This document shows positions 6,263-62,781 of a DNA stretch of 64,000 nucleotides, one piece after another. The stretch's first letter is position 1; every line of letters begins with the position of its first letter. The position numbers and the translations under genes are program-made. The notes under the pieces are model-generated. The model did not search any database. It was not told the origin of the DNA and saw nothing but the letters and a program-made list of their open reading frames with translations. The stretch is from an uncultured Myxococcales bacterium (GTDB lineage Bacteria > Myxococcota_A > UBA9042): the NCBI GenBank assembly GCA_903842345.1, contig CAIMLR010000030.1:62001-126000 (forward strand). The letters are read 5' to 3'.

Positions 6263-7972
6263 ATGGCGAAACGAACAGCATTTTTTCTGGGCGAAGTGAA
6301 AGCGCACGCGCGTGGCCTGGGCGCGCTGCTCGCGGCGGCAGGCGTGCTCCTGGCGCTGCCCGTCCATGCCGATAACGCCGTTCATGCCGCGGCGCCGACG
6401 GTCGCGGCCCCGGTGGTCAAGACGCCAGCGGTCGTTGCGCCCGGCATCGCTGCCCCGGCCAAGCCGGCCTACATCGCGCCGATCGTGCCGCAGCCCGCGG
6501 AAATCGCCGTTGCGCCGCAATTTGACGTCGGGATTTTTGGCGGCGCGGCGCTGTTCAGCACCAAGTCGCGCCTCGGTCTCGCCCACGATCCGCTGGATGT
6601 CCCGGGCAATGCAGGCGAAGTGGGCCTGCGCGCTGGCTGGGTCGGTCTGGATCGGCACCTGGGCGTGGAAGTGGAAGCGCGCGACGCGTTCTACACGCTG
6701 CGTTCGGGCAACGCCCACGGGCAGGTGCTCGGCTTCCGCCTGCAAGGTCTGTGGAATTTCATGCCGGAAGCGCGCGTCCAGCCGTTTGCCCTGCTGGGTG
6801 TGGGCGAAGAATTGCTGCTGAACAGCAAGCCGCAGTGCCCGCTGGGCGCCGCGCCGACGGCGAATTGCCTGCCGATGAAGGCGACGCACAACATCCTGAC
6901 CGGCGTGCTGGGCGCGGGCGTGCGGATTCCGCTGACGTATCGACTTGCCGCGCGGATTGACGTGCACTGGCTGCTGCAGCAGGGCCGCGCCAAGGATGAT
7001 CAGGCGACGCCGCCGATTCCCGCAACCGCGGTCTCCAGCAACTGGGACATGCTCGCCGGCCTCTCCTGGACCTTTGGCGGCGCGCCCGAGGACAGCGACA
7101 AGGACGGCATTCCCGACGAAATGGACAAGTGCCCGAACGAACCCGAGGACAAGGACGGCTTTGAGGACGCGGACGGCTGCCCGGACGTGGACAACGACGG
7201 CGACGGCATTCCGGACGACAAGGACAAGTGCCCGAACCAGGCCGAGGACAAGGACGGCTTCCAGGACGACGACGGCTGCCCGGATCCGGACAACGACAGG
7301 GACGGCATTCCGGACGCGCAGGACAAGTGCCCGAACCAGCCCGAGACGCGCAACGGCTACAAGGACGACGACGGTTGCCCGGACGTGGCGGACTCGGACG
7401 ATGACGGCATTCCCGAGGACAAGGACAAGTGCCCGAAGCTGAAAGAAGACAAGGACGGCTTTGAGGACGATGACGGCTGCCCGGACCCGGACAACGACCA
7501 GGACGGCATTCTGGACGTCAACGACAAGTGCCCGAATCAGCCGGAGACCAAGAATGGCTTGAATGACGACGACGGTTGCCCGGATTCCCTGCCGCCAGCG
7601 GCGCAGCGCTTGCTCGACCAGCCGATTGAAATGCGGTTCCGCGGCGCGGAGCTGATGAAGGGCGCGGACGACGTGTTTGACCCGCTGCTGGAACTGCTGC
7701 TGGAGCACGAAGGCGTGAAGATGGCCATCGCGGTCGCGGCGGAAACCGATGATGCCGCGGGCAAGGCGATGGCCGAGTCGCGTGCGCAGGCGGTGCGGGC
7801 GGCGTTTGGCGGCAAGGGCATTGAAGCCGACCGCATCACGTGCGCGGCGGGCCCGGTCGTGGCGATTCCGGCTGCGGCACCCGAAGCGACGGCGAAGAAG
7901 CCGAAGAAAGCGGCGCGCAAGGTTCCTGCGGCGCCGGTTGTCTCGCGGCCGGTCTCCCTGCGCATCCTGTAG
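6263..7972 (+). CDS. OmpA-like outer-membrane protein with five thrombospondin type-3 repeats (paralogue 1)
   Basis: The ATG at 6263 follows GACGAGGACACA. An upstream in-frame GTG at 6173 would add a 30-residue tail before the signal peptide. The 569-residue protein has a signal ending in LPVHADNA, an Ala/Pro-rich linker, and an eight-strand OmpA-like barrel (about residues 90-275). Five exact 33-residue Asp-rich calcium-binding repeats follow (core DKCPNQPEDKDGF/DDDGCPD). The C-terminal OmpA/MotB-like domain is degenerate: the peptidoglycan Arg is kept in AESRAQAVR, but the loop before it is shortened. A Lys-rich insert (KKPKKAARK) comes just before the last strand. It should link outer membrane to cell wall, stiffened by calcium. 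Confidence 0.9.
   Translation: MAKRTAFFLGEVKAHARGLGALLAAAGVLLALPVHADNAVHAAAPTVAAPVVKTPAVVAPGIAAPAKPAYIAPIVPQPAEIAVAPQFDVGIFGGAALFSTKSRLGLAHDPLDVPGNAGEVGLRAGWVGLDRHLGVEVEARDAFYTLRSGNAHGQVLGFRLQGLWNFMPEARVQPFALLGVGEELLLNSKPQCPLGAAPTANCLPMKATHNILTGVLGAGVRIPLTYRLAARIDVHWLLQQGRAKDDQATPPIPATAVSSNWDMLAGLSWTFGGAPEDSDKDGIPDEMDKCPNEPEDKDGFEDADGCPDVDNDGDGIPDDKDKCPNQAEDKDGFQDDDGCPDPDNDRDGIPDAQDKCPNQPETRNGYKDDDGCPDVADSDDDGIPEDKDKCPKLKEDKDGFEDDDGCPDPDNDQDGILDVNDKCPNQPETKNGLNDDDGCPDSLPPAAQRLLDQPIEMRFRGAELMKGADDVFDPLLELLLEHEGVKMAIAVAAETDDAAGKAMAESRAQAVRAAFGGKGIEADRITCAAGPVVAIPAAAPEATAKKPKKAARKVPAAPVVSRPVSLRIL
7091..7585 (+). repeat. Five tandem 99-bp thrombospondin type-3 repeats
   Basis: The 495 bp encode exactly five 33-residue units. 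Each has a DxDxDG calcium loop, the DKCP motif and a closing DGCPD. The two cysteines per unit would form disulfides between or within neighbouring units. Confidence 0.9.
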
Positions 7973-8232: not shown

Positions 8233-9978
<1,746 letters not shown>

Positions 9979-34576: not shown

Positions 34577-34600
34577 GTTGCCACAGAAGGAACGCCTCTG

Positions 34601-35671
34601 ATGTCCAACGCTCTACGCACGCTCTCCAAACGCCTGCCTTCGCTCGCTTCAACCGCTATGCTCCTGCTCCTCGCAGGACTGGCGACGGCTTGCGACGAAG
34701 CGCATCCGCGCGACGCCTACGCCCATCCCGCCGGTGACGCCAGCGAGATCAGCGCCTGGTTCTACAATATGTACTTGGTGTTGGACACGATCATCTTCGT
34801 CGGCGTGCTCGCGGCGTTCTTCATCGCGCTCATCAAGTTCCGCAAGAAGCCGGGCGACAACACGCTGCCGGAGCAGAGCTTTGGCGACCCGCGTCTGGAA
34901 ATCGCCTGGACCATCGTCCCGACGCTGGTGGTGCTTGGCATCACGATTCCGACGCTCGGCGGCTTGTTCGAGTTGGCGAAGCGCCCGGACCAGAACCAGA
35001 AGATCATCGACATCGAAGTCACCGGCAAGCAGTGGTGGTGGGAGCTGGACTACAAGAAGGAAGGCATCAACACCGGCAATGAAATGCACGTGGAAGTGGG
35101 TACGCAGGTCATGCTGCACCTGACTTCCGCGGACGTGATTCACGCCTGGTGGGTGCCGCGCCTTTCCGGCAAGCGCGACGCCACGCCAGGTCGCAGCTAT
35201 CCGCTGAACTTCCGCCCCAAGGAAGTGGGCAGCTTTGACGGCCAGTGCGCGGAGTTGTGCGGCGCGAGCCACGCGCTCATGGGCATTCGGATCATCGTCC
35301 ACCCCAAGGACGGTCCGGACAGCTACGAAAACTGGGTCAAGCACACCAAGGAAGTCGCCGCCAAGCCGACGACGCCCGCGGCGGAAGCCGGCCAGAAAGT
35401 CTTCATGGGCAAGGGCTGCGTGGCTTGCCACTCGATTTCAGGCGTCTCAGAACTGGCCGTGGGCGCGCGCTCGCGCACGTCTGGCCCGAACCTGACGCAC
35501 GTGGGCAGCCGCGACTACATCGCCGCGCACACGCTCAAGAACACGCCGGAGAACATCGCCACGTGGGTCAAGAACCCGCAGGCGGTCAAGCCCGGCGCGC
35601 TGATGACGAACTTGGGCCTGACGGACCAGGAAGCCAAGGACGTCGCGGCGTTCCTGACGAGTCTCAAGTAG
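34601..35671 (+). CDS. coxB: Cytochrome c oxidase subunit II with C-terminal cytochrome c domain (caa3 type)
   Basis: Subunit II takes electrons into the CuA centre. After a lipoprotein-like signal (LATAC, Cys31) come two membrane helices, then the cupredoxin domain. CuA ligands are visible in GQCAELCGASHALM and in the early His of DVIHAWWVP. The last ~90 residues are a class I cytochrome c with CVACH and the axial Met in PGALMTNLG. This tethered cytochrome defines caa3 oxidases. The 356-residue length is normal. AAGGAA lies eight bases before the ATG, 24 bases after ctaB. Confidence 0.96.
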   Translation: MSNALRTLSKRLPSLASTAMLLLLAGLATACDEAHPRDAYAHPAGDASEISAWFYNMYLVLDTIIFVGVLAAFFIALIKFRKKPGDNTLPEQSFGDPRLEIAWTIVPTLVVLGITIPTLGGLFELAKRPDQNQKIIDIEVTGKQWWWELDYKKEGINTGNEMHVEVGTQVMLHLTSADVIHAWWVPRLSGKRDATPGRSYPLNFRPKEVGSFDGQCAELCGASHALMGIRIIVHPKDGPDSYENWVKHTKEVAAKPTTPAAEAGQKVFMGKGCVACHSISGVSELAVGARSRTSGPNLTHVGSRDYIAAHTLKNTPENIATWVKNPQAVKPGALMTNLGLTDQEAKDVAAFLTSLK

Positions 35672-37635: not shown

Positions 37636-38289
37636 ATGTCCGCCCACGCAGATACTTTGACCCACGATTCGCACGCGGCCGACGGCCACGGCGCGCTGTC
37701 GGAGAACAACTTCCTCGGCCTGCCCAACATCAAACTGGCGATGTGGGCGTTTCTCGGCTCCGAGTGCATGTTCTTCGGCTCGCTGATCGGCACGTACTTC
37801 TTCTATCACGGCAACAGCCTGTCCGGCCCGCTGCCCAAGGACGTCTTCTCCATCGGCATCACGTCGATCTCGACGTTCCTGCTGCTGATGTCGTCCGTGA
37901 CCATGGCGCTGGGCGTGGACGCGATGCGCCAGCAGAAGCCGATGCGGGCGCGCACGTTCATCCTCCTCACCGCCGCGTTGGGCGCGTGCTTCGTCGGCTT
38001 CCAGGTCGTCGAATTCCACGAGTTCTACACGGAGAAGCACCTGATCTTCGCGGGTCCCAACGCGTCGCTCTTTGGCTCCACGTTCTACACGATGACCGGC
38101 TTCCACGGCACGCACGTCACCGTCGGCGTGATTTGGCTGCTGATCATGTCCGTGCTCATCACCAAGAAAAAGCTCGTGCCCGGCAAGGAAGCCGTCAACG
38201 TTGAGGTCATGGGCCTCTACTGGCACTTCGTCGACATCGTCTGGATCGTCATCTTCACGTTCGTTTACCTTCTGGAGTTCCTCAAATGA
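37636..38289 (+). CDS. coxC: Cytochrome c oxidase subunit III
   Basis: The 217-residue membrane protein has about five helices, as in the shorter bacterial subunit III. Family pieces include MWAFLGSECMFFGSLIGTYF, VVEFHEFYTEKHL, and FYTMTGFHGTHVTVGV, followed by YWHFVDIVWIVIFTFVYLLE. The cytoplasmic N-terminus is His-rich (MSAHADTLTHDSHAADGHGA), a feature shared with CtaB and the next gene. Its stop overlaps the next start in ATGA. Confidence 0.96.
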   Translation: MSAHADTLTHDSHAADGHGALSENNFLGLPNIKLAMWAFLGSECMFFGSLIGTYFFYHGNSLSGPLPKDVFSIGITSISTFLLLMSSVTMALGVDAMRQQKPMRARTFILLTAALGACFVGFQVVEFHEFYTEKHLIFAGPNASLFGSTFYTMTGFHGTHVTVGVIWLLIMSVLITKKKLVPGKEAVNVEVMGLYWHFVDIVWIVIFTFVYLLEFLK

Positions 38290-39035
38290 GCCACGGGCAC
38301 GATTCGCACGAGCTGCCACACTCGCATCAGAAGCAATACATCATTCTCGGCGTCGTCCTGTCGATCGTGACGTTCATCGAGCTCGGCATTCCGCTTATCA
38401 AAGGCGTGCCGGAGCTGTGGACGGCGGCCAAGGAAGTCTGGGCGCCGCTGCTCGTGGTCCTGTCGATCTTCAAGTTCGGCGCGGTCGTGGGCGACTTCAT
38501 GCACCTGCGGACGGACTTGACGCTGTACAAGATCCTGTTCGTGTCGCCGCTGTTCCTGGCGATGTTCAGCTTCTTCGCCATCGGCTCGCTGTCGGTTGTG
38601 CACTTCCATCCGTTCGGCAAGGGCTACGCGATTACGGCGCAGGACCTCGCGGACGGCTACGTGCCGCCGACCACGGGCGCAACGGCTGAACCGCCGCTCG
38701 CGGACGACAAGTTTGAAGCGGCGTTTGCGGATGCGCAGAAGACGAGCTTTGCCAAGGGCAAAGAGACCTTCACCGCGAGCTGCGCCAGCTGCCACCGCGC
38801 GGACGGCGGCGGCATGCCCGGCTTGGGCGTGAACCTCTCAGATGACTGCTACAAGCACGGCGGCAAGATCGCTGCGCTCTACACGACAATCGCCAAGGGT
38901 GTCAGCGGCACCGCGATGCCGGCTTGGCAGAACAGCATGGACTCTGAGAAGATGCGCCAGGTCGCCTACTACGTCCGCAGCCTGAAGGGCACGAACGTCG
39001 CCGGCGGCAAAGAATGCGAAGGCCCCAAGGAATAG
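38286..39035 (+). CDS. coxD: Cytochrome c oxidase subunit IV fused to a cytochrome c domain
   Basis: The first 110 residues are a subunit IV-like (CtaF/COX4_pro-type) membrane domain with three helices at about 18-39, 51-72 and 82-105. The remaining 140 residues are a monohaem cytochrome c with CASCH at 166-170 and an axial Met in GTAMPAW (Met211). Ordinary subunit IV is about 100 residues and has no haem. Three helices with a cytoplasmic start put the cytochrome on the outer, periplasmic side, where it is needed. The oxidase would thus have two tethered cytochromes, one on subunit II and one here. The N-terminus is His-rich (MSHGHDSHELPHSHQ). The ATGA overlap with coxC shows coupled translation. 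Confidence 0.9.
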   Translation: MSHGHDSHELPHSHQKQYIILGVVLSIVTFIELGIPLIKGVPELWTAAKEVWAPLLVVLSIFKFGAVVGDFMHLRTDLTLYKILFVSPLFLAMFSFFAIGSLSVVHFHPFGKGYAITAQDLADGYVPPTTGATAEPPLADDKFEAAFADAQKTSFAKGKETFTASCASCHRADGGGMPGLGVNLSDDCYKHGGKIAALYTTIAKGVSGTAMPAWQNSMDSEKMRQVAYYVRSLKGTNVAGGKECEGPKE

Positions 39036-57077: not shown

Positions 57078-57128
57078 GGCGCGACGTGGTAGCAAGAACC
57101 CGACGGGATGACAACTGCAATCGCGGGG

Positions 57129-57157
57129 TTGACGCCCACGGCGCGCGCGGGCAGAGT
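57129..57157 (+). promoter_or_regulatory. Possible promoter for the three-module lipoprotein gene
   Basis: TTGACG (5 of 6 matches) at 57129-57134 and CAGAGT (3 of 6) at 57152-57157 are 17 bases apart, about 23 bases before the start codon. The region is a 102-bp divergent gap. Confidence 0.3.
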
Positions 57158-57179
57158 GGCTTGCGAGGGGAAGGCGAAC

Positions 57180-58979
57180 GTGAATCGGCGGTTGGACAAG
57201 GCGCGTGGCGTCGTTGGGATCGGTGTGGCTGCAGCGCTGCTGGCGACAGCGTGCAGCAGTGCGCCCGCCACGGACGCCGACGTCGCCGCCATGGAGGACG
57301 CGTCGGCATGGGCGTTTTCGGACGTCGCGAAATCCGCCGCGGCCGAAGCGGACACGCACGATGCGACCGACGCGACGGCAGCCGACGCCCCGCCCGCGGA
57401 CGACGCCCCGGATGTGCCAGTTGCCGATGTGCCAGTCGCCGCGGGTGACACCACCTCCGATGCCGATGCCGCCGCGGATCCCGACGGCGGGTGCACGCCG
57501 GGAGGTTGCCCTGCCGCAAATTCAGCCTGTGCGGTCGCGGTTTGCCACGCCGATGGAACGTGCGGTTTCGCCGCCGCCAGCGATGGCCAAGCGTGCAGCG
57601 ACGCCAACGCGTGCACGGCCCAGGACAGCTGCCAAAGCGGCGCGTGCGTCGGCGGCGCCATCAACTGCGACGACGGCAACGGCTGCACCGTGGACAGCTG
57701 CAAACCCACGGTCGGCTGCATCCACGCGTTCGTCCTCGGACCGTGCGAGGACGGCGACGGCTGCACGCTGAACGACCAATGCCTGAGCGGTAGCTGCGTG
57801 CCCGGCGCCGCGGCGATCTGCACGCCCAGCGACCCGTGCCAGGAAGCCGGGACGTGCGAACCCGCGACCGGCGTCTGTCCGTTTGGCGCGGTGCCCAATG
57901 GAACCGCGTGTGGCAGCGGCCAAGTCTGCATGGTCGGCACATGCTCCGCCGCGGACGCCTTGCCCGTGGGCGCGCTCGCATGGTTCAACACCGGCAATTG
58001 CCCCGCCGGCTGGGCCGCTGAATCGACCGTCATCGGGCGCACGATCGTCCCGAGCGACCCCGCCGGCGCAGGCCAAACCGATGGCGTTCCGCTCGCACCC
58101 GGCGAGGACCGCGTGCACAGCCACGGCATCACGGGCAGCGCCACCACGGGCGCCGTCAGTTTTGCCGGCATCGTCGGCTGCTGCAACTCCGGGTTGAGCG
58201 CTGCCGGCACCTGGGACGTCACCGGCAGCGCGCTCCCGGCCAGCTCCGGCATCCCGTACGTGCAATTGCGCGCCTGCAAGAAAACCACGGCGATCACCTT
58301 TGGCAGCGCGCCCGCAAGCCTCATCGCGTTCATCGACGGCGCCACCTGCCCCGCCAGTTGGAGCAGCATCACCGACGCGATCCACCGTTTCATCGTCGGG
58401 ACGCCGGTCGGCGGCACCACGGGCGCGCCCTTTGGCGGCGTTTGGGGCAGCAGCCACGCCCACTCGGTCAGCGCCGACATCCCGCTCCCCGGCCACGGTG
58501 TCGGCCTCGCATCGGGCTGCTGTGGCGGCGGCTTCGCCAGCGCCGGCACCCTCGGCTTCAACGGGGCGAGCGACGCCAGCGCCAGCGCCTTCCCCAGTGT
58601 CCAGCGCGTCGCGTGCGCCGCGAGCGCGACGAGCGACAGCCCCGGGCCAATCCCCAGTGGCTTGGTCGCGTTCTTCACCAGCAACACCTGCCCGAGCGGC
58701 TGGAGCGCGGCCTCAGCCGTCGCGGGACGCCTGATCGTCGGCGCGGCGGATGACTGGAGCGTCGGCACCACCGTGGGCACGGCGCTCGCCGACAAGGAAG
58801 ACCGCGGCCACACGCACGGCATCCTGGTCAGCGTCCAACCGCCCGCCAAGTCGATCGCCGGGGCCAACGGCGGCAATGGCCAGGCCGCGGAGAGCACCAA
58901 GGCGGACGGAACCGGCACCAGCGGCAATTCGCCGTCCGGCATGCCGTTTCTCCAGTGGCGCGCGTGCCAAAAAGACTGA
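57180..58979 (+). CDS. Cys-rich lipoprotein with three CPxGW modules
   Basis: GAGGGGAAGG precedes the GTG at 57180. The 599-residue protein has a lipobox (LATAC, Cys25) and an 80-residue Asp/Ala-rich tether. A Cys-rich section follows (about 105-258) with the myxobacterial repeat CDDGNGCTVDSC and CEDGDGCTLNDQC. Then come three modules of about 105 residues (about 261-366, 378-479, 490-596). Each begins with hydrophobic ALAWFNTGNCPAGW, LIAFIDGATCPASW or LVAFFTSNTCPSGW, contains GR(T/L)IV or RFIVG and an HxHxI/V motif (HSHGI, HAHSV, HTHGI), and ends in a QLRAC-like strand. The CPxGW start and HxH element resemble phage tail-collar/receptor-binding folds, which is inferred. An exposed adhesin is likely. 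Confidence 0.75.
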   Translation: MNRRLDKARGVVGIGVAAALLATACSSAPATDADVAAMEDASAWAFSDVAKSAAAEADTHDATDATAADAPPADDAPDVPVADVPVAAGDTTSDADAAADPDGGCTPGGCPAANSACAVAVCHADGTCGFAAASDGQACSDANACTAQDSCQSGACVGGAINCDDGNGCTVDSCKPTVGCIHAFVLGPCEDGDGCTLNDQCLSGSCVPGAAAICTPSDPCQEAGTCEPATGVCPFGAVPNGTACGSGQVCMVGTCSAADALPVGALAWFNTGNCPAGWAAESTVIGRTIVPSDPAGAGQTDGVPLAPGEDRVHSHGITGSATTGAVSFAGIVGCCNSGLSAAGTWDVTGSALPASSGIPYVQLRACKKTTAITFGSAPASLIAFIDGATCPASWSSITDAIHRFIVGTPVGGTTGAPFGGVWGSSHAHSVSADIPLPGHGVGLASGCCGGGFASAGTLGFNGASDASASAFPSVQRVACAASATSDSPGPIPSGLVAFFTSNTCPSGWSAASAVAGRLIVGAADDWSVGTTVGTALADKEDRGHTHGILVSVQPPAKSIAGANGGNGQAAESTKADGTGTSGNSPSGMPFLQWRACQKD

Positions 58980-59816: not shown

Positions 59817-62627
59817 CTACCAACATTCCGGGCTGTGCGCCTGGCCGTGACACGTGCCGTTGCACTGCACGCTGGTCGAGCAGCCGCCGGTCTTGGGGCG
59901 CGTCGCGCTGATGCTGCCGGTGTACGGCGCGCCGCTGATGTTCGCGGTGACGTCGCGCAGGCCGTTGACGTGGCTGGCTGATGTCGCGCCCGGATGGCAC
60001 GTCGTGCAGGCCACGTTGTTCTCGCTGCTCAAATGGTCCGCGTGGTGGCCGGTCGAGGGCATCGCGTCATGGCAGTTGCCGCAACTGCCGGCGTTCCACG
60101 TGCCGCCAGCCCAGCGCGGTGTGACGTTGGGCGCGCCGCCGCGTCCGTCGGAATGGCATGCGCCGTTGCACGTCCCGCGGGCGCTCGGGGGCGCGCCGGT
60201 GACGGCGTTCACGTCCCAGGTCATCGCGCCGGTGCTGTTGACGTCCGTGGGCGCAGGCGGGAACGTCACATCGCCATGATGCCCCGCCGTCGTCAGATCC
60301 GCGCTCGGCGTGTATTGCTGGGTGTGCCCCAGATCGCCCGCCGGCGGCACGATGTGGCATTGCGTACAGGCGAACGCGATGTGGGTGGCGCTGGCGCTCA
60401 AGTGCGCAAGGTGGCGGCCGACCGCGAGCGCCTGGCTCGTTGTCTCAGCGGCCACGCCCGCGGGCGGGTTGTTCTGCGCAGCGCTGCCGTGGCAGAAATT
60501 GCACGCGTGCCAGTCGCCGCCGGTGCCACCCGCCGGGTTGGCGCCATGGCAGTTGATGGTGCTGTTGTTGCAGGAAACGCCGACCGTACCGCCGGCAAAG
60601 TCCGCACCGTGGCATTCCGTGCAGTCCGTGCCCTTGTCGTCCTTGCCGTGGTTGGCGAGGAAGTAGCCAAATCCGTGGTGATTCGGATTGGCCTGGCCAG
60701 TGCCGGGCGTGACTTTCGGCGAGACCCAACCGCTCAAGCCATGGTAGCTGCTGGACTCAACGATGCCATCGACATGAAGCGCCGGATTGGCCCACGTCGC
60801 GACACCGCCCGTCATCTTGGCCACAACCGCGCCGTGGCAGAGCGCGCAGTTGGCGTTCTGCGGGTGGGCGCCCGCGGGCGGCGTCATGTGGCAGCTCGCG
60901 CCGCAAGCGTTGAACGTCCCGTCGACCTGGGTCCAGACCGGCTTGATCTTGGCCGTCGTGCCATTGGCGAGCGTACCGCCGTGGCAGTAGGCGCCGCTGC
61001 AGGTCGCGGATCCGGCGTCGAACTGGGGTGCCGCGCCCATCGCCGTCGCGACCGTGCTCCACGCAAAGTCAATCACGCCGTTGGAATGCGTTGCCGAGAC
61101 CGGCACGGCGTGGCAATCCGTGCAGGCGACCTGCCGGTGCCAGTTGCTGAGCGCAAGGTGCTGGGCGTGCGCGCCGACGGCCAAATCCGTCGTACTCGTC
61201 TCGCCTTTTGTCCCCTTGGGCGGCGCGGGATTGTTGCTCGCGGCATCCCCGTGGCACGCCGTACAGGTCAGGTTCTTCACGTCGACCTGACCGTTGATGT
61301 GCAGCGCGGCGTTCGCCCAAGTCGCCTTCTGGGTGGCGGGGTCAAAGCCCGCGATCACCGCGTCATGGCACAGCGCGCAGTTGTTGTTCTGCGGGTGCTT
61401 GCCCGCCGGCGGCGTCATGTGACACGCCGCGCCGCAGGAATTGAACGTGCCATCGACCTGCGTCCAGACCGGCTTGACCTTCGCGCCCGGCGAATCCGGC
61501 AGCGCACCGCCATGGCAATACGCATCACTGCAAGTCGCGGTCGTCGCCGAGAATTGCGGCACGCTCGCCATCGCCGTCGCGACCGCGCTCCAGGCAAAAT
61601 CAACAACGCCGTTCGCGTGCGTCGGGATCGTCGGCACGGCATGGCAGTCTGTGCACGCCACCTGACGGTGCCAAGTGCTCGTTGCCAGATGCTGGGCGTG
61701 CGCGCCGACCGCCAAATCGGTCGTCTTCGTCTCGCCCTTGGTGCCCAGCGGCGGCGCGGGATTGTTCGACGCGGCATCGCCATGGCAGCTCGTGCACGCC
61801 ATCGACTTCACTTCAATCTGGCCGTTCACGTGCAGCGCCGCGTCCTTCCACGTGGCCTTCTGCGTCGCGGCGTCAAAGCTCGCGATCACCGCGTCGTGGC
61901 ACTCGGCGCAGTTGCTGTTTTGTGGATGCGGGCCACCCGGCGGCGTCATGTGGCAGCTCGCACCACAGGAATTGAAGGTGCCGTCGACCTGCGTCCACAC
62001 CGGCTTGGTCTTCACCGTCGCCGCGTCAATCAGCTTGCCACCGTGACAGTACGCGCCGCTACACGTCGCCGACCCTTCGTCAAACGCCGGAGCGCTCGCC
62101 ATCGCCGTTGCCACGCCGCTCCAGGCAAAATCGATGACGCCGTTCTTGTGCTTGGGCTGGGTCGGCACCTTGTGGCAGTCCTCGCACTGCACGGTCCGAT
62201 GCCACGTGCTGTCCGCCAAGTGCTGCTGGTGCGCGCCGACCGCGAGCTGGGACGTCGCAATTTCGCCACCCGTGCCGATCGGCGGCGCCGGATTGCCGTT
62301 CTCAAGCGTGCCATGGCAGCTGTAGCAGCCGCCCATCGGCTCAAAACCGCCATCCACGTCTGCCCCGGCATCCGCGCTGTCGGCCGCCACGTCAGCGGTA
62401 TCGGGCGTGGCGTCGGCTGCATCCTGGACGTCCGCCGCCGCGTCGCCATCGGTCCCGTCCAGCGGCGGCAATTCCGCGTCCGCAACGGCATCGAGTTCGT
62501 TGCCCGGACCTGCGGTCGTCTTGTCGCTGCACGCCGCGCACGGCAGGAGCAGCGCCGATGCCGCGGCCATGCGGAGCAACAGCCAAGTCAGTGAAACCGA
62601 ACGATTGGAATGGAAAACGGTTGTCAC
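59817..62627 (-). CDS. Multihaem c-type cytochrome lipoprotein with up to 23 haem motifs
   Basis: I chose the GTG at 62627 because GAGGGTG precedes it; a GTG at 62693 or ATG at 62687 would add a tail before the signal. The 936-residue protein has a lipobox (LPCAAC, Cys34), an 80-residue Asp/Ala tether and a Cys/His-rich body. I count 14 CXXCH, 5 CX3CH, 3 CX4CH and 1 CX6CH motifs. The alternation CX4CH ... CXXCH is the Geobacter CxxxxCH/CXXCH pattern (PF09698/TIGR01904). Three tandem 177-residue units (60735-62327) carry five motifs each; eight more follow. Such proteins conduct electrons across or outside the outer membrane. No porin-cytochrome partner is adjacent. How many haems are attached is not known. 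Confidence 0.88.
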   Translation of the reverse strand: MTTVFHSNRSVSLTWLLLRMAAASALLLPCAACSDKTTAGPGNELDAVADAELPPLDGTDGDAAADVQDAADATPDTADVAADSADAGADVDGGFEPMGGCYSCHGTLENGNPAPPIGTGGEIATSQLAVGAHQQHLADSTWHRTVQCEDCHKVPTQPKHKNGVIDFAWSGVATAMASAPAFDEGSATCSGAYCHGGKLIDAATVKTKPVWTQVDGTFNSCGASCHMTPPGGPHPQNSNCAECHDAVIASFDAATQKATWKDAALHVNGQIEVKSMACTSCHGDAASNNPAPPLGTKGETKTTDLAVGAHAQHLATSTWHRQVACTDCHAVPTIPTHANGVVDFAWSAVATAMASVPQFSATTATCSDAYCHGGALPDSPGAKVKPVWTQVDGTFNSCGAACHMTPPAGKHPQNNNCALCHDAVIAGFDPATQKATWANAALHINGQVDVKNLTCTACHGDAASNNPAPPKGTKGETSTTDLAVGAHAQHLALSNWHRQVACTDCHAVPVSATHSNGVIDFAWSTVATAMGAAPQFDAGSATCSGAYCHGGTLANGTTAKIKPVWTQVDGTFNACGASCHMTPPAGAHPQNANCALCHGAVVAKMTGGVATWANPALHVDGIVESSSYHGLSGWVSPKVTPGTGQANPNHHGFGYFLANHGKDDKGTDCTECHGADFAGGTVGVSCNNSTINCHGANPAGGTGGDWHACNFCHGSAAQNNPPAGVAAETTSQALAVGRHLAHLSASATHIAFACTQCHIVPPAGDLGHTQQYTPSADLTTAGHHGDVTFPPAPTDVNSTGAMTWDVNAVTGAPPSARGTCNGACHSDGRGGAPNVTPRWAGGTWNAGSCGNCHDAMPSTGHHADHLSSENNVACTTCHPGATSASHVNGLRDVTANISGAPYTGSISATRPKTGGCSTSVQCNGTCHGQAHSPECW
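60735..62327 (-). repeat. Three 531-bp tandem repeats in the multihaem cytochrome gene
   Basis: The first cysteine codons of the three units lie at 62327, 61796 and 61265, exactly 531 bp apart (177 codons). Units 1-3 share long identical protein stretches such as KPVWTQVDGTFN and LAVGAHAQHLA. Unit 3 departs after about residue 150 of the unit. The exact spacing and high similarity point to recent or recombination-maintained duplication. Confidence 0.85.
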
Positions 62628-62781
62628 GACACCCTCACAGCACAAGGAAAGACCGGCAAAGTCGCACTCTGCCAACGGAAAAAACATAGCCACTTGACAT
62701 CCGCCATGCCATTCATCGCGCGCCTTGCCGCATCAACATTCACAGTTCTTCACAAATCCCGTGCGGACGTGATTTGACATC

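Follow-up and report, generated by a model that had tools for sequence, protein, structure and literature searches.

A probable lipid-anchored multihaem cytochrome built from pentahaem units of gene-specific number in an uncultured Myxococcota bacterium

A multihaem cytochrome gene composed of three units and a cap

The window (i.e., the whole 64,000-nucleotide stretch of DNA analysed here) carries on its minus strand a gene for a multihaem cytochrome whose open reading frame allows two GTG starts, yielding proteins of 958 aa (GTG at 62693) or 936 aa (GTG at 62627). The start at 62627 is the better choice, and the 936-aa reading is preceded by GAGGG-N6-GTG, while residue numbers given below (C55; unit starts 123, 300 and 477) refer to the 958-aa reading. 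The gene and its parts are as follows.

59817-62627, minus strand: multihaem lipoprotein cytochrome gene, 936 aa, with three pentahaem units, an eight-haem C-terminal cap and 23 CXnCH motifs
62532-62627, minus strand: probable lipoprotein signal peptide, residues 23-54 (GAGGG-N6-GTG start, hydrophobic stretch, aligned lipoboxes of relatives)
62529-62531, minus strand: probable lipid-modified Cys55, followed by Ser (standard lipobox at the same position in relatives)
62328-62528, minus strand: acidic Asp/Ala-rich linker, 67 aa, pI ~4.05 (sequence composition)
61797-62327, minus strand: pentahaem unit 1, 177 aa (clusters with unit 1 of relatives)
62043-62063, minus strand: CX4CH of unit 1 (motif scan)
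61950-61967, minus strand: CX3CH of unit 1 (motif scan and class-mate alignment)
61266-61796, minus strand: pentahaem unit 2, 177 aa (clusters with unit 2 of relative L058)
61512-61532, minus strand: CX4CH of unit 2 (motif scan)
61419-61436, minus strand: CX3CH of unit 2 (motif scan and class-mate alignment)
60735-61265, minus strand: pentahaem unit 3, 177 aa (clusters with the last unit of relatives)
60981-61001, minus strand: CX4CH of unit 3 (motif scan)
60888-60905, minus strand: CX3CH of unit 3 (motif scan and class-mate alignment)
59820-60734, minus strand: C-terminal cap, eight motifs with spacing 2-6-2-2-3-2-2-3 (motif residues invariant in 16 caps)
60546-60572, minus strand: CX6CH of the cap (its counterpart in the L068 and L070 caps is CX4CH)
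60153-60170, minus strand: CX3CH of the cap (motif scan)
59847-59864, minus strand: CX3CH of the cap, its last motif (motif scan)

The protein contains 14 CX2CH, 5 CX3CH, 3 CX4CH and 1 CX6CH motifs, compared to a mean of 0.88 and a maximum of 5 motifs across 2000 composition-shuffled versions. This agrees with an earlier note on this DNA, which had counted 23 motifs (15 in the units plus eight others), nine of them widely spaced. The three units of five motifs each are likewise as that note described them; their motifs run in the order 2-2-4-3-2, and they start at residues 123, 300 and 477. The note's "exact 531-bp internal repeats", on the other hand, are exact in spacing (177 residues, or 531 bp) and not in sequence: ungapped identity between the three units is 71, 61, and 68% for DNA and 71, 59, and 67% for protein, with dS values of 0.9-1.5 and longest identical runs of 16-23 bp.

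Family membership and conservation of haem ligands

The cytochrome is a repeat-rich representative of the TIGR01904 family (CxxxxCH/CxxCH; GSu_C4xC__C2xCH), with a score of 93.1 bits (cut-off 27) over four stretches, one per unit and one in the cap, and its matches to PF09698 and PF14522 also exceed their cut-offs. Weaker Pfam matches (zinc ribbon, Pcf11, QueF) fell under the cut-off and were ascribed to Cys/His content. The TIGR01904/PF09698 CxxxxCH/CxxCH domain was named from Geobacter sulfurreducens; TIGR01904 is found in 119 of the 379 genomes sampled from the phylum. The window protein resembles this family in its score far above the cut-off, in carrying the domain once per unit and thus in several copies, and in the succession of a CX4CH and a second motif. 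It differs in that this second motif is CX3CH in the window units (CX2CH in class-mates), that the true repeat is a five-motif unit of 177-180 aa, that the cap is fixed at eight motifs, and that relatives have up to 73-83 motifs. The nearest named records are the uncultured Myxococcales assemblies MJ-time_bin-1663 and Ja1_bin-0143, names which presumably refer to a survey of stratified lakes.

To evaluate conservation, we aligned 146 units, all from the family of the window protein (mean pairwise identity 55%, median column 61% conserved). Units were excised based on the motif pattern and, since the frames tile completely with this pattern, no divergent unit was omitted, contig ends excepted. 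The fifteen motif residues are invariant (99-100%), and so are non-motif histidines at unit positions 33, 36, 60, 134, and 166 (99-100%), followed by His43 (95%). The sequence alignment thus indicates five bis-His haems per unit, and the combination of five haems with five additional invariant histidines fits bis-His electron transfer rather than an open catalytic site. The fourth-position CX3CH is supported as a true haem site because class-mates have an ordinary CX2CH there. Together, the many CXnCH motifs, the invariant Cys and His residues, the additional histidines, and the matches to three profiles support the multihaem cytochrome proposed in the earlier note, which would be of c type.

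In the predicted structure of the window protein, the three units repeat the same secondary structure, mostly at 70-88 pLDDT, while the cap is mostly below 50 pLDDT and the overall pTM is 0.41. Foldseek returned no PDB fold match for this model (pTM 0.41), and a PDB sequence search with the units returned none either.

Haem-motif number follows a 5N+8 rule

Complete close relatives all tile as (CX2CH, CX2CH, CX4CH, CX3CH, CX2CH) x N and end in the same eight-motif cap, so that their haem-motif number equals 5N+8, with N = 2, 3, 3, 5, 12, and 13. The shortest is G010:C72 (N=2, 18 motifs); the window gene and G001:C25 have N=3 (23 motifs), G002:C163 has N=5 (33 motifs), and G002:C14 has N=12 (68 motifs). 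Five giants have N=13 (73 motifs), including one on another contig of the window's own genome (G000:C39), where L048:6557-15412 is a frame of 2952 aa whose 73 CXnCH motifs form 13 pentahaem units and the cap; its spacing pattern and unit count are common to four relatives. G002 apparently encodes two different 13-unit, 73-motif giants (L063 on C25 and L064 on C133). Two more distant genes, G010:C66 and G020:C235, have 83 motifs and a slightly different cap, and G030:C44, which belongs to a different family of the class, carries 81 motifs, its units being mostly 2-2-4-2-2.

A further paralogue in the window's genome, a fragmented assembly of 50 contigs from an uncultured organism, is split over the ends of contigs C34 (L050:9702-10442) and C30 (L047:9864-12347), which are probably parts of a single gene broken by the assembler at its repeats; unit numbers in such an assembly may be affected by collapsed repeats. 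No plasmid-borne relatives were found by tblastn against PLSDB, and nothing specific on a Myxococcota cytochrome of this type was found in open-licence literature. The TIGR01904 domain family, large cytochromes, and wide motifs are already known: up to 86 motifs occur in one ANME protein (PMC9012536), and gene neighbourhoods with over a hundred motifs were described with MHCscan (PMC11475568). We found no precedent in the searched literature for motif numbers that strictly obey 5N+8, for a fixed pentahaem unit containing CX3CH, or for paralogues of different N within one genome.

Internal units were gained or lost between species

In a tree of units, units 1, 2, and 3 of the window protein pair with units 1, 2, and 3 of G001:C25, respectively. 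Units of the 13-unit giants also cluster mostly by position across species, with position 9 mixed with 12, and all five giants share spacing quirks (42 where 38 is usual, following units 6, 9, and 12). Because both the position-wise clustering and these quirks at fixed positions are shared, continuing homogenisation of units can be discounted. Units 7-8-9 of the giants resemble units 10-11-12, indicating that a block of three units accounts for part of the growth of the giant.

The length variation anticipated by the earlier note is observed between species and paralogues. It is seen at a locus of G002 that is syntenic with the window gene (neighbouring lipoprotein, dipeptidase, and beta-glucosidase 79%, 84%, and 84% identical to those of the window), at which the cytochrome has five units instead of three; units 2-4 of this gene form a species-specific group, with 77-82% DNA identity. 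A tract prone to recombination today, the other part of that expectation, is not supported, given the dS of 0.9-1.5, the same-position clustering, and the retention of N=13 and a nearly identical spacing pattern in five giants, and recent recombination among units was accordingly ruled out. The first and last units are kept, with inner units gained or lost.

A probable lipid anchor, genes of the general maturation machinery, and a separate conduit-like cluster

The lipobox of the window protein is atypical (LLLPCAAC-SDKTT), yet C55 aligns with the lipobox cysteine of relatives (GVAC-SDKTT in L058), and the lipobox is of standard form in 16 of the 19 relatives examined. The protein is thus probably lipid-anchored, in line with the earlier note. 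The 67-residue linker stands between this anchor and the first haem motif and may act as a flexible tether; the linkers of relatives are likewise acidic, with lengths of 33-239 aa.

The window gene is solitary, with a convergent fatty-acid hydroxylase gene on one side and a divergent lipoprotein gene on the other, and it adjoins no gene for a porin-like barrel or periplasmic cytochrome. Dedicated haem lyases have been described for CXXCK and CX15CH (PMC6976685), and the earlier note had considered that the wide motifs might need special lyases. No dedicated lyase gene was detected among the examined neighbours of the window gene, and genes for CcmF (911 aa), CcmE, and a ResB-like protein occur in the genome, so that the general systems I and II machinery is at least partly present. 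Given these genes and the alignment of CX3CH with the CX2CH of class-mates, special lyases are not needed to account for the observations, none of which calls for one at CX3CH or CX4CH. The caa3 oxidase mentioned in the same note is confirmed: window positions 34577-35668 encode COX2 fused to cytochrome c, with COX1 at G000:C30:97852, i.e., at about window 35.9 kb. At the same caa3-type oxidase locus, positions 38205-39032 encode a COX4-like domain fused with a cytochrome c domain.

A porin-cytochrome (Pcc)-like cluster is found on another contig of the genome (G000:C14:7443-13938, L051), where genes for a 36-motif lipoprotein matching TIGR01904 and MtrC-like domains, a signal-peptide protein of ~467 aa, and a 13-motif lipoprotein follow in tight order. 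This order recurs in G001, G002 (third protein with 12 motifs), G004, G007, and G010, and in the class-mates G049 and G050, in which the outer cytochrome is made of 2-2-4-2-2 units; 36, 28, or 26 motifs are found in the outer cytochrome of the conserved cluster. The middle protein is predicted to form a 22-strand barrel (pLDDT 65, pTM 0.56) and matches outer-membrane barrels of the PDB (best Foldseek E 1.8e-9, TM only 0.3-0.5); a sequence search among solved structures gave no match for this barrel, and the genome has no PF11854 match indicative of an MtrB/PioB-type porin. Published Pcc systems have 18-22 strands, 5-14 periplasmic haems, and 1-15 typical motifs in the outer cytochrome (PMC4245776). 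By strand and haem numbers, this cluster is therefore Pcc-like, with an unusually haem-rich outer partner.

The barrel occurs in 9 of the 10 family genomes with strong tandem-type proteins vs. 5 of the 12 without (p ~0.03, one-sided, calculated by hand and ignoring relatedness). Only strong tandem-type hits were counted here, since a count of all P0001 hits over all relatives is partly circular, the cluster's own outer cytochrome matching P0001. The link between window gene and conduit is one of co-occurrence, suggestive as it stands and weak once relatedness is allowed for. Extracellular electron transfer by the host of the window protein, as proposed in the earlier note, is hence plausible from gene content, with indirect support from a porin-cytochrome-like cluster located elsewhere in the genome.

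A candidate single-chain haem wire and alternative roles

Taken together, these observations make it reasonably likely that the window protein is a lipid-anchored, single-chain haem wire of TIGR01904 type with a reach set by its number of modules. Following an N-terminal lipid anchor and acidic linker, the chain would comprise three pentahaem modules and an octahaem cap, with five bis-histidine haems in each module and electrons hopping along 15 + 8 haems. Module number would fix both reach and haem count (5N+8), and internal modules would be duplicated or lost over species time, while the first and last modules and the cap are kept. The most likely site would be the outer membrane or cell surface, from which electrons received from the separate porin-cytochrome conduit could be passed to extracellular acceptors at low oxygen. 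The motifs, modular tiling, ligand conservation, differences in unit number, and conduit-like and maturation genes are observed directly; we infer haem loading, surface location, electron path, acceptor, and oxygen dependence. Scaled by OmcZ, which spans 58 angstrom per 8 haems (PMC9473688), a chain of 23 haems would reach ~17 nm and one of 73 haems ~53 nm if extended.

A lipoprotein attached to the outer (or inner) membrane from the periplasmic side, using its 23 haems as a capacitor or spanning from inner-membrane dehydrogenases to the conduit, is a possible though unlikely alternative. The lipid anchor and flexible linker would suit this role, as would a length of ~17 nm (OmcZ figure, PMC9473688), the storage offered by many haems, and a gene that does not adjoin a porin. 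However, the 13-unit paralogues (~295 kDa) would be ~50 nm long when extended, exceeding the usual periplasm, and a related outer cytochrome belongs to the porin cluster. It is improbable that the motifs with n>=3 bind no haem, leaving ~14 haems in the mature protein: a Pcc survey called haem binding by motifs wider than CX4 undetermined (PMC4245776), but no variation is seen among 146 units at the Cys, Cys, and His of the wide motifs, CX3CH aligns with the CX2CH of class-mates, and a motif with a 14-residue loop does bind haem in OmcZ (PMC9473688). We give very little credence to a catalytic enzyme, e.g., one that reduces nitrogen, sulfur, or metal compounds. While pentahaem and octahaem arrangements exist in NrfA and SirA/MccA (PMC6976685), a motif scan of the window protein found no CXXCK and no long-spaced CX12-15CH, at least five invariant additional histidines per five haems leave no evident open site, the units are many and repeated, and profile searches gave no family match to NrfA/SirA-type enzymes.

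For the haem wire that we favour, published systems offer partial parallels. OmcS, OmcE, and OmcZ would share with it a close-packed chain of bis-His haems and little secondary structure, and OmcZ also has a wide motif; these are, however, non-covalent polymers of 4-8-haem subunits, whereas the window repeats lie within one chain, and neither PDB sequence search nor Foldseek (window model pTM 0.41) indicated homology. The giant multihaem cytochromes of ANME are, similar to the window family, single chains with many motifs (20-86; PMC9012536), although they are archaeal, some carry S-layer domains, and the likeness noted here is one of chain type and motif number. Similar to OmbB-OmaB-OmcB, the porin-like barrel of the genome is flanked by outer multihaem and 13-haem lipoproteins, yet the window gene lies outside this cluster, whose outer cytochrome has 26-36 motifs compared to 1-15 typical motifs in the published survey (PMC4245776).

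A family that combines the strict 5N+8 rule with conserved unit geometry and an N specific to each gene would provide a natural length series for testing the effect of wire length on electron transfer, and uncultured, oxidase-bearing Myxococcota would become candidates for extracellular electron transfer. To our knowledge, extracellular haem wires either polymerise from small cytochromes or consist of one large chain that follows no simple repeat rule. We tentatively raise the broader possibility that, in Myxococcota, how far a monomeric, covalently continuous haem wire reaches is set by how many equal-length pentahaem modules it contains (5N+8), which would give a graded set of wires per cell, from ~18 to >80 haems across species, and represent an alternative to polymerised nanowires.

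Other features of the window

Two further sets of repeats were observed in the window. Positions 57108-58979 encode a Cys-rich putative lipoprotein with a match to Dicty_CTDC repeats, and repeats homologous to this protein lie near other cytochrome genes of the family (L068, L061, and L060). Tandem 99-bp repeats at positions 7090-7584 and 9026-9485 encode Asp-rich, DNDxDGxxD-like stretches that probably bind calcium.
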